A stretch of 57,896 nt of DNA from an uncultured Desulfuromonadales bacterium (GTDB lineage Bacteria; Desulfobacterota; Desulfuromonadia; Geobacterales; CAIOGM01). Position numbers and translations under genes: made by a program. The stretch's first letter is position 1. Every line of letters starts with the position of its first letter. The stretch is from positions 1-57,896 of the forward strand of contig CAIYUY010000230.1 of assembly GCA_903929485.1 (NCBI GenBank), in the 5' to 3' direction. A model generated the notes under the pieces. It searched no databases. It saw nothing but the letters and a program-made list of their open reading frames with translations, and had not been told where the DNA came from. This document shows, piece after piece, positions 1,015 to 4,666 of this stretch.

Positions 1015-1044
1015 TTGACAAATGACGAAGTCAAAGGGAATAAT
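1015..1044 (+). promoter_or_regulatory. Candidate sigma-70 promoter of nadB
   Basis: TTGACA (1015-1020) is followed after 18 bp by AATAAT (1039-1044), about 30 bp before the chosen ATG. The -35 is consensus. A GTG-type codon at 1015 falls inside this element, which argues against a longer nadB. Confidence 0.5.
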
Positions 1045-1074
1045 TCCGGGCAAGCAGTCCACCACGGAGGAGTC

Positions 1075-2670
1075 ATGAAGATCACCAGCGACTTTCTTGT
1101 TATCGGCAGCGGTATCGCCGGACTTTCCTTTGCCCTTAAAGCGGCCCAGGATGGCAGCGTGGCCATCGTCACCAAACGGGAGATCTCCGAGACGGCCACC
1201 AACTACGCCCAGGGGGGGATCGCCTCGGTCTTTTCCTCCGAGGACAGTTTCTCCGCTCACGTGGATGACACCATGGTGGCCGGCGCGGGAATCTGTCATG
1301 AAGATGTAGTCCGGATGGTGGTGGAGGAGGGGCCGGAGACCATCCGACGCCTCATTGAAGTAGGGGTCAAGTTTACCACCAGTGGCGATTCCTATGACCT
1401 CACCCGCGAGGGAGGGCACAGTCAGCGCCGTATTCTCCATGCCGACGATGTCACCGGCCGGGAGATCCAGCGGGCGTTGGTGGCTGCCGTTCATGAGAAT
1501 CCAAATATTCGTATTTACGAAAATCACGCGGCCATCGATCTGCTCACCGAGGCCAAGGTGCTCCGTAAGAGACTGAAACAAAACCGCTGCCTGGGGGCCC
1601 ATGTCCTGGATGTGGCCACCGGGGTTGTGAAGACCTTTTGCGCCAAGGTGACATTGTTGGCCACCGGAGGCGCCGGGAAGGTCTATCTCTACACCTGCAA
1701 CCCGGACGTGGCCAGCGGCGACGGGGTCGCCATGGCCTATCGCGCCGGCGCCACCATCGCCAACATGGAGTTCATGCAGTTTCATCCCACCACCCTCTAT
1801 CATCCCTTGGCCAAGTCGTTTCTCATCTCCGAAGCGGTGCGGGGGGAAGGGGCGATTCTTCGCCGCCGCGACGGCACTGCTTTCATGGAAAAATACCACA
1901 AGTTGAAGGATCTGGCTCCCCGGGATATCGTGGCCAGAGCCATTGACAATGAGATGAAGACCTCCGGTGATGATTGCGTCTACCTTGACATCACCCATAA
2001 AGAGCCGGAGTACGTCCGGAGCCGTTTCCCCAACATTTATCAGACCTGTCTTGGCTTCGGCCTGGATATGACCCGTGAACCGCTTCCCGTGGTGCCGGCG
2101 GCTCACTATCTTTGCGGCGGCGTGGCGGTGGACGCCAATGCCGAGACTGATATCCGGCACCTGTACGCCATCGGCGAGACCTCCTTTACCGGGCTCCATG
2201 GCGCCAATCGTTTGGCCAGCAACTCACTCCTGGAAGCGGCTGTGTATGCCGGTCGCGCCTACCGGCACGCCGTGGAAGAGGTGAAGAGGGGAGAATTCAT
2301 CTCCCCCGATATCCCCGTGTGGGACGCGGGGACCGCCACCAACAGCGACGAAATGGTGGTGGTTTCCCAAAACTGGGATGAGATCCGACGCTTCATGTGG
2401 AACTACGTGGGGATCGTCCGGTCCGATAAGCGGCTGGAACGGGCCTTGCGGCGGATTCGGTTGATCCAGGAAGAGATCGAGGATTACTACTGGGACTTCA
2501 TTATCGACTCGGACCTCATTGAACTCAGGAACATCGCCACCGTGGCCGAACTCATTGTCCTCTGCGCCCAGAGCCGGAAGGAGTCTCGGGGGCTTCATTA
2601 TACCATCGATTACCCGGAACGGGACGACATTCACTGGCTGAAAGACACGTTTATCAAGAAGCAGTTTTAA
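1075..2670 (+). CDS. nadB: L-aspartate oxidase
   Basis: This flavoprotein oxidises L-aspartate to iminoaspartate, the first step of NAD synthesis; in anaerobes fumarate can be the electron acceptor. The 531-residue protein carries an N-terminal FAD-binding motif GSGIAG (residues 11-16) and the family's substrate-binding segments FMQFHPTTLY and VVPAAHYLCGG. It ends with the helical capping C-terminal domain shared with succinate dehydrogenase flavoproteins. ATG 1075 follows GGAGGA at a good distance; a start at 1015 would add 20 residues lying over the promoter. nadA and nadC are not nearby, so it seems to be transcribed alone. Confidence 0.95.
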   Translation: MKITSDFLVIGSGIAGLSFALKAAQDGSVAIVTKREISETATNYAQGGIASVFSSEDSFSAHVDDTMVAGAGICHEDVVRMVVEEGPETIRRLIEVGVKFTTSGDSYDLTREGGHSQRRILHADDVTGREIQRALVAAVHENPNIRIYENHAAIDLLTEAKVLRKRLKQNRCLGAHVLDVATGVVKTFCAKVTLLATGGAGKVYLYTCNPDVASGDGVAMAYRAGATIANMEFMQFHPTTLYHPLAKSFLISEAVRGEGAILRRRDGTAFMEKYHKLKDLAPRDIVARAIDNEMKTSGDDCVYLDITHKEPEYVRSRFPNIYQTCLGFGLDMTREPLPVVPAAHYLCGGVAVDANAETDIRHLYAIGETSFTGLHGANRLASNSLLEAAVYAGRAYRHAVEEVKRGEFISPDIPVWDAGTATNSDEMVVVSQNWDEIRRFMWNYVGIVRSDKRLERALRRIRLIQEEIEDYYWDFIIDSDLIELRNIATVAELIVLCAQSRKESRGLHYTIDYPERDDIHWLKDTFIKKQF

Positions 2671-2720: not shown

Positions 2721-3008
2721 ATGACCATCGACGACCTGCGGCAGGATATTGACCGCCTTGACAGCGCGCTTCTTCATATTTTCAATGTTCGCGCCTCGTT
2801 GGCGCTTCGCATCGGCGAGGTTAAGAAGACGCTGACCCTGCCGGTCTACGATCCGGCGCGGGAGAAAAGGATATTTGCCCGGATGAAGGAGCTGAATACC
2901 GGTCCGCTGGACGATCAGGCAATTCAGCGGCTCTTCGAACGGGTCATCGATGAGTCCAGGCGGTTGGAGCGGATCATGACCCACGGTGACAGCGAGAAGG
3001 AGGAATAA
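2721..3008 (+). CDS. Chorismate mutase (AroQ class)
   Basis: It converts chorismate to prephenate, the entry to phenylalanine and tyrosine. The 95-residue, all-helical protein shows the AroQ pattern: LRQDIDRLDSALLHIFNVR in helix 1, then IGEVKK, then the PAREKRI segment that carries active-site charged residues. It is a monofunctional mutase with no prephenate dehydratase or DAHP synthase domain attached. The next gene, 5 bp downstream, encodes a small domain normally fused to DAHP synthase, so the pair probably acts at the aromatic pathway branch point. Confidence 0.85.
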   Translation: MTIDDLRQDIDRLDSALLHIFNVRASLALRIGEVKKTLTLPVYDPAREKRIFARMKELNTGPLDDQAIQRLFERVIDESRRLERIMTHGDSEKEE

Positions 3009-3013
3009 ATAGC

Positions 3014-3223
3014 ATGCTCATTATCATGAAAAAGACTGCGGACGAGACGGCCCTGGATTCCGTCAAGGAGTACCTTATTACCAGGGATTTCGATATCCAC
3101 CAGTCCACCGGGGCCAACCGGATCATCATCGGCGTTATCGGTAACACCGACACCCTGGACAACGGCACCATCAGCGCCATGCCGGGAGTGTTGCAGGTGG
3201 TGAGAATCACCAAGGAAGAGTAG
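3014..3223 (+). CDS. Free-standing ferredoxin-like domain of DAHP synthase type
   Basis: This 69-residue protein resembles the N-terminal regulatory (ferredoxin-like) domain of Thermotoga-type DAHP synthases. It begins MLIIMKKTADETALDSVKEYL, continues through a GANRIIIGVIGNT turn and ends with a PGVLQVVRITK strand. In those enzymes the domain precedes a (beta/alpha)8 catalytic barrel and mediates feedback inhibition by aromatic amino acids. No barrel follows here; the frame stops at 3223. It sits 5 bp after a chorismate mutase, so a regulatory role in trans on the mutase or a separate DAHP synthase is plausible but inferred. Confidence 0.65.
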   Translation: MLIIMKKTADETALDSVKEYLITRDFDIHQSTGANRIIIGVIGNTDTLDNGTISAMPGVLQVVRITKEE

Positions 3224-3235
3224 GGCGGAGAGGTC

Positions 3236-4666
3236 ATGTCGTATAAAATGCTTTTGGTGCTCTTCGGTCTTTTTACCCTGGGGATGATCATTGTTTTAGG
3301 CAATGGCATGTTCTTGTCACGCCGCCGTTATATTATCCTTTTTCAGGTGAGACCCCGGACGAGGAAGCGATCCAAGTCAGCTCCTTCGGTAACGAGCCCC
3401 GCACTTCCACCCCCTTCTTTCTTCTCCTGGTGGCTGAAGGAGCGTGTTCTCATGCCGGCGCTGCTCTGCGGACTTTATCTGCTGACTGCCGTTGGAGTCT
3501 ATCTGGTGCTCCCCCTGCTGCATCCCGGCGCAAAAACCAACAAGACGACATCCGGGATTCCTGACGTGTCGCAACGACAGAAGGAGCTCTGGAAGAGTTA
3601 TGTGGAGCTAAGCGTTGCAGCCGAGAAAAATCCCCAAGACCCCTCCCTTCACCTGGAACTGGCCAGGGCTCAGCGTGATCTGGGGCTGGGGCAGAAAGCG
3701 CTGGACTCCTACCGCAAGGTGCTCTACCTGGATCCGCTCTCCCTGGACGCCCGGTACGAAATGGGGTGTATGGCAGTCATAGCCGGTGATACGACTCTGG
3801 CTGCCACCCAGGTAGCGGAATTGGCCGTCCGGTGGCCCCGCCGACCAGAATCCCACCTCCTGCAGGCGCGGATGGACCTCCGGGCGGGGAAACGAGCGGC
3901 GGCCCTGGCCCAGTTGCGAAACGCCCTGACTGTCGAGCCGGGCAACCGGGAGATCCGGATACTGCTTGTCGATGCGCTCCTGCAGCAGAGCGCCTATGCC
4001 GAGGCCGCCCGCTTGGCGCAGGAGGGGCTGAAGCTGGCGTCCATCCCTGCTCCGATCAATCAGCGGGTGAACGGGATGGGCAAACCGCAGTCGTCTCGCG
4101 CGTCAACCATCACCCTCTCTCTCCTGCTGGCCCGGAGTCAGATCGGCCTGGGGGATCGCGCCAAGGCCGAAACGATACTGCAGGGGGTTGCCGTGGCCGA
4201 TTTATCCACGCCGACCCCGTTCATTCTTCTGGGGGATCTCCGAATAAACCGCAAGGAGTACCGCGCCGCGCTTACTGCGTATGAAGAGGCGCTGAAACGG
4301 GATCCGGGCAATAATCTGCTGATGAACAACATCGCCAGCCTCTCGGCGGATCACGGTTTCGATCTGGGGCGGGCCGCAAACCTGGCGGCCCGGATGTACG
4401 CCAAATACCCCAGTGACCCGGCGGTGGCTGATACCTTGGGGTGGGTTCTTTGTGCTCAGGGGAAAAAGGATCAGGCGCTTCCCTTGCTACGGTTCGCCGC
4501 TGCCGGGGCGCCCGCTAATCCGAACCACCGCTACCATTTCGGCGTGACGCTGCTAAAGTCCGGTCAAACGGCGCAAGGGCGCAAGGAGTTGGCAGCGGCG
4601 CTGAAGATATCCAAGGAGTTCGACGGGGCGGAAAAGGCGCGGGCGTTGCTGGGAGGGAAGGAGTAA
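3236..4666 (+). CDS. Membrane-anchored TPR protein with CcmI-like layout
   Basis: The 476-residue protein has a first membrane segment at about residues 5-27 and a basic, proline-rich loop. A second membrane segment follows at about 71-95. The rest is a long TPR solenoid with several canonical repeats, such as LHLELARAQRDLGLGQKALD and YRAALTAYEEALKRDPGNN. Two N-terminal membrane spans followed by a periplasmic TPR domain is the layout of the cytochrome c maturation factor CcmI. No other ccm gene is near, so the function is open. It follows the DAHP-synthase-like domain by 12 bp and may be cotranscribed with it. Confidence 0.7.
   Translation: MSYKMLLVLFGLFTLGMIIVLGNGMFLSRRRYIILFQVRPRTRKRSKSAPSVTSPALPPPSFFSWWLKERVLMPALLCGLYLLTAVGVYLVLPLLHPGAKTNKTTSGIPDVSQRQKELWKSYVELSVAAEKNPQDPSLHLELARAQRDLGLGQKALDSYRKVLYLDPLSLDARYEMGCMAVIAGDTTLAATQVAELAVRWPRRPESHLLQARMDLRAGKRAAALAQLRNALTVEPGNREIRILLVDALLQQSAYAEAARLAQEGLKLASIPAPINQRVNGMGKPQSSRASTITLSLLLARSQIGLGDRAKAETILQGVAVADLSTPTPFILLGDLRINRKEYRAALTAYEEALKRDPGNNLLMNNIASLSADHGFDLGRAANLAARMYAKYPSDPAVADTLGWVLCAQGKKDQALPLLRFAAAGAPANPNHRYHFGVTLLKSGQTAQGRKELAAALKISKEFDGAEKARALLGGKE

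Follow-up and report, generated by a model that had tools for sequence, protein, structure and literature searches.

A chorismate mutase paired with a free-standing DAHP synthase-type regulatory domain in Geobacter-like bacteria, most likely a tyrosine-responsive enzyme by prediction

The window, that is, the whole analysed stretch of 57,896 nucleotides from an uncultured Desulfuromonadales bacterium of the Geobacterales, contains near its start two short adjacent genes on the same strand, one for a chorismate mutase (CM) and one for a ferredoxin-like domain (FXD) of the kind otherwise attached to 3-deoxy-D-arabino-heptulosonate 7-phosphate synthase (DAHPS). The features of the locus are as follows.

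1015..2670, plus strand: NadB, an L-aspartate oxidase, which usually precedes the pair (NF006567, E 1e-236)
2721..3008, plus strand: monofunctional AroQ-class chorismate mutase, 95 aa (PF01817 CM_2, E 7.9e-24)
2997..3003, plus strand: Shine-Dalgarno-like AAGGAGG within the last CM codons, 10 nt before the FXD ATG (sequence reading)
3014..3223, plus strand: free-standing DAHPS ferredoxin-like regulatory domain, 69 aa (PF18152, E 1.8e-19, full profile)
3098..3106, plus strand: H29-Q30-S31 codons, the putative tyrosine-contact motif (alignment to H29 and S31 of T. maritima DAHPS)
3236-4666, plus strand: TPR protein, the gene after the free FXD (open reading frame in the window)

The identity of the 69-aa product is clear. 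PF18152 (DAHP_snth_FXD) covers it over 67 of 67 profile positions with 69.8 bits against a cut-off of 27, and the Pfam profile search returned no other family for this protein. The catalytic (beta/alpha)8 barrel, which is fused C-terminally to this domain in type I-beta DAHP synthases, is absent, the frame ending at residue 69 with the TPR gene next in line. The AlphaFold2 model (mean pLDDT 91.2) has its best fold matches among the T. maritima-type DAHPS domains (4grs, 1rzm and 1vr6; TMq 0.82-0.86), so that the predicted fold is the ferredoxin-like one of that group. The likeness to T. maritima type I-beta DAHPS thus extends over domain family, predicted fold and the residues H29 and S31, and the difference is that here the domain is a separate polypeptide beside a CM. 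An earlier note, made from the sequence alone, had described a 69-residue, barrel-less product resembling the N-terminal domain of Thermotoga-type DAHP synthases and lying 5 bp after a monofunctional CM, and both the resemblance and the spacing hold; the profile search with the DAHPS N-domain that it proposed matched full length. Membership in an unrelated ACT-like family, the outcome that it had named as fatal, is ruled out, with PF18152 the sole Pfam match and true ACT proteins far weaker fold matches.

That the 69-aa frame is a real gene and not a chance one follows from three observations: base differences between the free FXD and 79 homologues concentrate at the third codon position (2946, versus 1130 at the first and 814 at the second), a ribosome-binding sequence precedes the frame, and a search with a free-domain profile finds the frame in 90 of the 97 genomes of the order (85 of 90 among the better assemblies), the profile having failed to find it in G002, G024, G033, G058, G090, G092 and G095. 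The adjacent CM, when aligned to the CM of E. coli PheA, keeps R11, R28, K39, D48, R51, E52 and S84, with Gln88 replaced by Glu; these positions are catalytic in the E. coli enzyme, and with these AroQ active-site residues in place the window CM probably has activity. The closest solved structures are the CM domains of CM-DAHPS proteins, 2d8d, 3nvt and 5j6f, from T. thermophilus, Listeria and Geobacillus, respectively; 2d8d, a CM, carries the same molecule name as the fusion structures. The window CM thus resembles the AroQ domains of the CM-DAHPS fusions (3nvt, 5j6f and 5gmu, the last B. subtilis AroA(G)), among which its nearest solved relatives are found, but it is free, whereas theirs is joined to the barrel.

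The pair and the core idea of its function have been known since 2009. The genome paper on Geobacter metallireducens describes a CM next to a free domain resembling that of the Phe/Tyr-responsive T. maritima DAHPS, GSU1828/1829 in Geobacter and Gmet_1955 (CM)/Gmet_1956 (free domain) in G. metallireducens, and, in the passages on the pair, proposes that the free domain regulates the adjacent monofunctional CM, reports that in a tree it groups with one of two DAHPS types, and suggests that the Gmet_0024-type enzyme is inhibited by tyrosine via its own domain (PMC2700814). This part of that account comes to two sentences and a tree the data for which are not shown there (PMC2700814). The orthology of the window pair to GSU1828/1829 is likely from domain content and arrangement. 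The limited collection of literature that we searched contained no other paper on the pair, no mention of GSU1828, GSU1829, Gmet_1955 or Gmet_1956 elsewhere, and no experimental test of the CM-FXD pair. What we add to the 2009 account is the distribution of the free domain, its co-occurrence with CM, the residues of the putative site, and doubt about its kinship.

The rest of the genome speaks against one part of the earlier reading. Four proteins match PF00793, on contigs C21, C187, C159 and C279; the last is KdsA, judged from its neighbour genes, the C21 and C187 enzymes are Thermotoga-type DAHP synthases, each complete with its own FXD, and the C159 enzyme is of the E. coli AroF type, in which no FXD match was found. 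A fragment broken off a DAHP synthase is thereby ruled out, both Thermotoga-type enzymes being complete, and the genome carries the free FXD in addition to theirs, not as a half that one of them has lost, so that to call it "split off" from a DAHP synthase is misleading. The earlier note had held that possession of an own copy by all DAHP synthases would undo its proposal; this is the case for the C21 and C187 enzymes, with the AroF-type enzyme as the exception. What survives is its central suggestion, a free DAHPS-type regulatory domain beside CM acting as an aromatic sensor in trans, which is still the best reading, and what falls is the loss of that domain by a DAHP synthase. There are two CMs in this genome, the window CM and the P-protein (fused CM-prephenate dehydratase) on contig C233, and the set of three DAHPS types plus a P-protein is like that reported for Geobacter, as far as the published passages describe it (PMC2700814). 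The AroF-type enzyme (L001) keeps the proline equivalent to Pro148 of E. coli AroF, unlike the AroF-like enzyme of Geobacter metallireducens, for which a P148T change is noted (PMC2700814), and this isoenzyme may therefore still be tyrosine-sensitive. The C187 enzyme scores higher than the C21 enzyme against T. maritima, which hints that it, rather than C21, is the counterpart of Gmet_0024. Elsewhere in the order, a C187-type DAHPS lies in two adjacent pieces (G020:C9:1573-2545, query residues 1-163 and 184-332), possibly a broken or frameshifted gene.

Beyond the order, we ran the free-domain profile, which was built from the order, on a sample of 395 genomes from the phylum. Besides members of the order, 8 genomes belonging to the same class (families f5, f6 and f7) and 9 of family f33 gave strong matches (at least 88 bits); f33 lies outside the window's class, elsewhere in the phylum. 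The weaker matches, all but one, fall in open frames of at least 337 aa, long enough for an attached domain; the one in a shorter frame, G337:C100:30947-31147 (1.7e-10, 139 aa), is possibly another free domain or a cut or broken DAHPS. Judged by the same order-built profile, the free domains of f33 (124-135 bits) outscore the ones that belong to the window's class but not to its order (88-102 bits). This suggests that the free domain passed horizontally between the order and f33, in a direction that the tree leaves unsettled. A Geobacter-like free FXD with 79% identity also stands at a contig end in a record titled Nitrospirae bacterium GWC2_56_14 (L077), either a mis-binned contig or a transfer.

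The free domain keeps constant company. The gene immediately upstream encodes a CM in all 20 fetched relatives, in 79 of the 80 named loci (80 kept of 123) and at all 25 loci of the 395-genome search, three sets that overlap; the sole named locus without one begins at a contig end. In 64 of the 79 named pairs the two genes overlap or lie no more than 30 bp apart. No CM-FXD fusion was found among the survey loci, and in f33, where open frames of 165-602 aa could be mistaken for one, fusion is ruled out, the CM lying in another, overlapping frame. The same-strand nadB is a frequent upstream neighbour (19/20 fetched relatives, 69/80 named loci, 15/25 survey loci) and probably does not belong with the pair. 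The TPR gene turned up at no locus of the three sets, which makes it no conserved neighbour, with the proviso that it could lie beyond the fetched sequence or the sensitivity of tblastn.

Family f33 allows genomes with and without the free FXD to be compared. All nine genomes with the free FXD have an extra CM, and none of the six without it does, each of these showing a single CM match; an all-or-none split of this kind would arise by chance with p = 2e-4, kinship ignored. That single match is of the P-protein type by place and frame length, lying in a long frame about 1.1 kb from an FXD-bearing DAHP synthase. The complement of DAHP synthases barely changes meanwhile: two FXD-bearing enzymes are present in 6/6 f33 genomes without the free FXD and in 8/9 with it, the ninth, G470 (88% complete), showing one. 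Since the free FXD tracks CM and not DAHPS content, these patterns point to CM, and not DAHPS, as its partner. We also observed, at f33 loci such as L322-L324 and L326-L328 (G358:C273, G122:C14), a P-protein-like CM about 1.1 kb before a DAHPS with an FXD of the H.S type, an arrangement suggestive of a pheA-DAHPS gene pair.

The second line of evidence comes from the putative ligand site. In the alignment, the window FXD shares H29 and S31 with T. maritima DAHPS, where His29 and Ser31 reportedly contact tyrosine (Cross et al.). The residues D27, H29, Q30, S31, T32 and G33 are the same in every one of the 105 distinct free domains, and H29 together with S31 is present in 26/26 free domains from the order, 8/8 from the class and 9/9 from f33 (residue table of 245 distinct genome-domain rows kept from 296); all 80 named loci have them too, but these were found partly through a pattern containing the motif and are not an independent count. 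Among covalent domains of the same order and class, those of the order coming from the best-scoring loci and one further search rather than from all 97 genomes, Ser31 occurs in 0 of 64 and His29 in 39 of 64, the motif reading H.I in C21-like domains and A, E, R or L.I in C187-like ones. Covalent domains outside the class are mostly H.S (35/37; 13/21 in f33), counts that may be inflated because these domains (40 fetched, plus L165-L168) were picked by matches to the free-domain profile, which favours free-like ones. At positions 29 and 31, then, the free FXD has the residues expected of a tyrosine-responsive domain, and the absence of Ser31 from C187-like domains sits badly with the 2009 idea of self-inhibition of the Gmet_0024-type enzyme by tyrosine, if Gmet_0024 is indeed of the C187 type.

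The ancestry of the free domains is less clear. In a tree of 110 rows and 66 columns, they form one clade (95/89), and the free search gives them the B-type (C187-like) DAHPS domains as sister group (97/90). An alternative tree uniting the free domains with the H.S-type covalent ones is not rejected (AU p 0.62) and scores 5.5 log units higher, and both groups sit on long stems, so that the B-type kinship is not secure; trees of 66 columns with such stems neither confirm nor exclude the published grouping with one DAHPS type.

What the domain is, its predicted fold, the invariance of its site residues and the fixed pairing of the two genes are established directly, and as their best explanation we lean, with modest confidence, toward a regulatory subunit of the upstream CM, free-standing and with a tyrosine-type amino-acid-binding site. 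Two FXD subunits would pair and bind tyrosine where they meet, in the manner of the attached domains of T. maritima DAHPS, in which two FXD/ACT-like domains jointly form the tyrosine sites (PMC5493349); the tyrosine-bound FXD would then change the activity or assembly of CM. In such a scheme the CM-FXD pair would feed prephenate to the tyrosine branch, and the fused CM-prephenate dehydratase would serve phenylalanine. We infer tyrosine binding by the FXD and its binding to CM from likeness and pairing, and the effect would be expected to be inhibition. There is a precedent of sorts in the non-covalent CM-DAHPS complexes of M. tuberculosis and C. glutamicum, to which we liken the window's pair of genes: there, according to the cited accounts, CM relies for both its activity and its feedback control on a second polypeptide, one that belongs to the DAHPS side of the pathway, although that partner is a whole type II DAHPS and here it would be a lone regulatory domain (PMC6435475, PMC5493349). 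The constant association of the two genes could also arise without protein contact, given that co-transfer of an operon could suffice.

The same facts can be arranged differently. The free FXD might join up with the attached FXD of a Thermotoga-type DAHPS, restoring its lost tyrosine site as a feedback subunit in trans: it belongs to the same family (PF18152), it keeps the Ser31 that is missing from the covalent domains examined in the order and class, and both the sister placement next to B-type domains and the 2009 grouping (PMC2700814) would fit. We consider this unlikely, because the free FXD travels with CM and not with the DAHPS complement, a covalent H.S-motif domain coexists with it in 9/9 f33 genomes, and the higher-scoring tree joins it to H.S-type domains instead. 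An arrangement in which the FXD bridges CM and FXD-bearing DAHP synthases, giving tyrosine control over the first and the last step of the common pathway after the fashion of the mycobacterial and corynebacterial complexes, seems still less probable to us. CM-DAHPS complexes and fusions are established (PMC6435475, PMC5493349, PMC4281200), the window CM is closest to CM domains of just such proteins, and each of the 17 genomes of the class and of f33 that carry the free FXD has at least one FXD-bearing DAHPS, as has the genome of the window; in the known complexes, as described, the DAHPS is of type II and the CM of a different subclass (PMC6435475). Least plausible of all, and in our view quite improbable, is a tyrosine-binding protein that acts on a target outside the branch, such as a regulator of transcription or transport, and shares the operon only for co-expression: ACT-type domains do serve many targets, and there are weak fold matches to the TyrR N-terminal domain and phosphoglycerate dehydrogenase (E 0.016-0.05), but DAHPS-type domains match far better, and the strict pairing and all-or-none co-occurrence with CM speak for a target within the branch.

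Returning to the free FXD as a subunit of CM, we tentatively entertain a broader scenario, in which the tyrosine site was lost from the DAHPS domains of this lineage and survives only in the free copy serving CM, so that feedback would have shifted from the entry step of the pathway to its branch point in the form of a separable, horizontally mobile two-gene module.

Taken together, the observations indicate that the pair of CM and sensor domain is real and conserved, and that it most likely constitutes a predicted tyrosine-responsive chorismate mutase. If this is correct, a natural allosteric domain would be acting as a detachable subunit that has been swapped between enzymes of one pathway, and the pair would make a small two-protein system in which CM feedback could be added or removed in vitro. 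The control of tyrosine synthesis in Geobacter-like bacteria would likewise become easier to understand.
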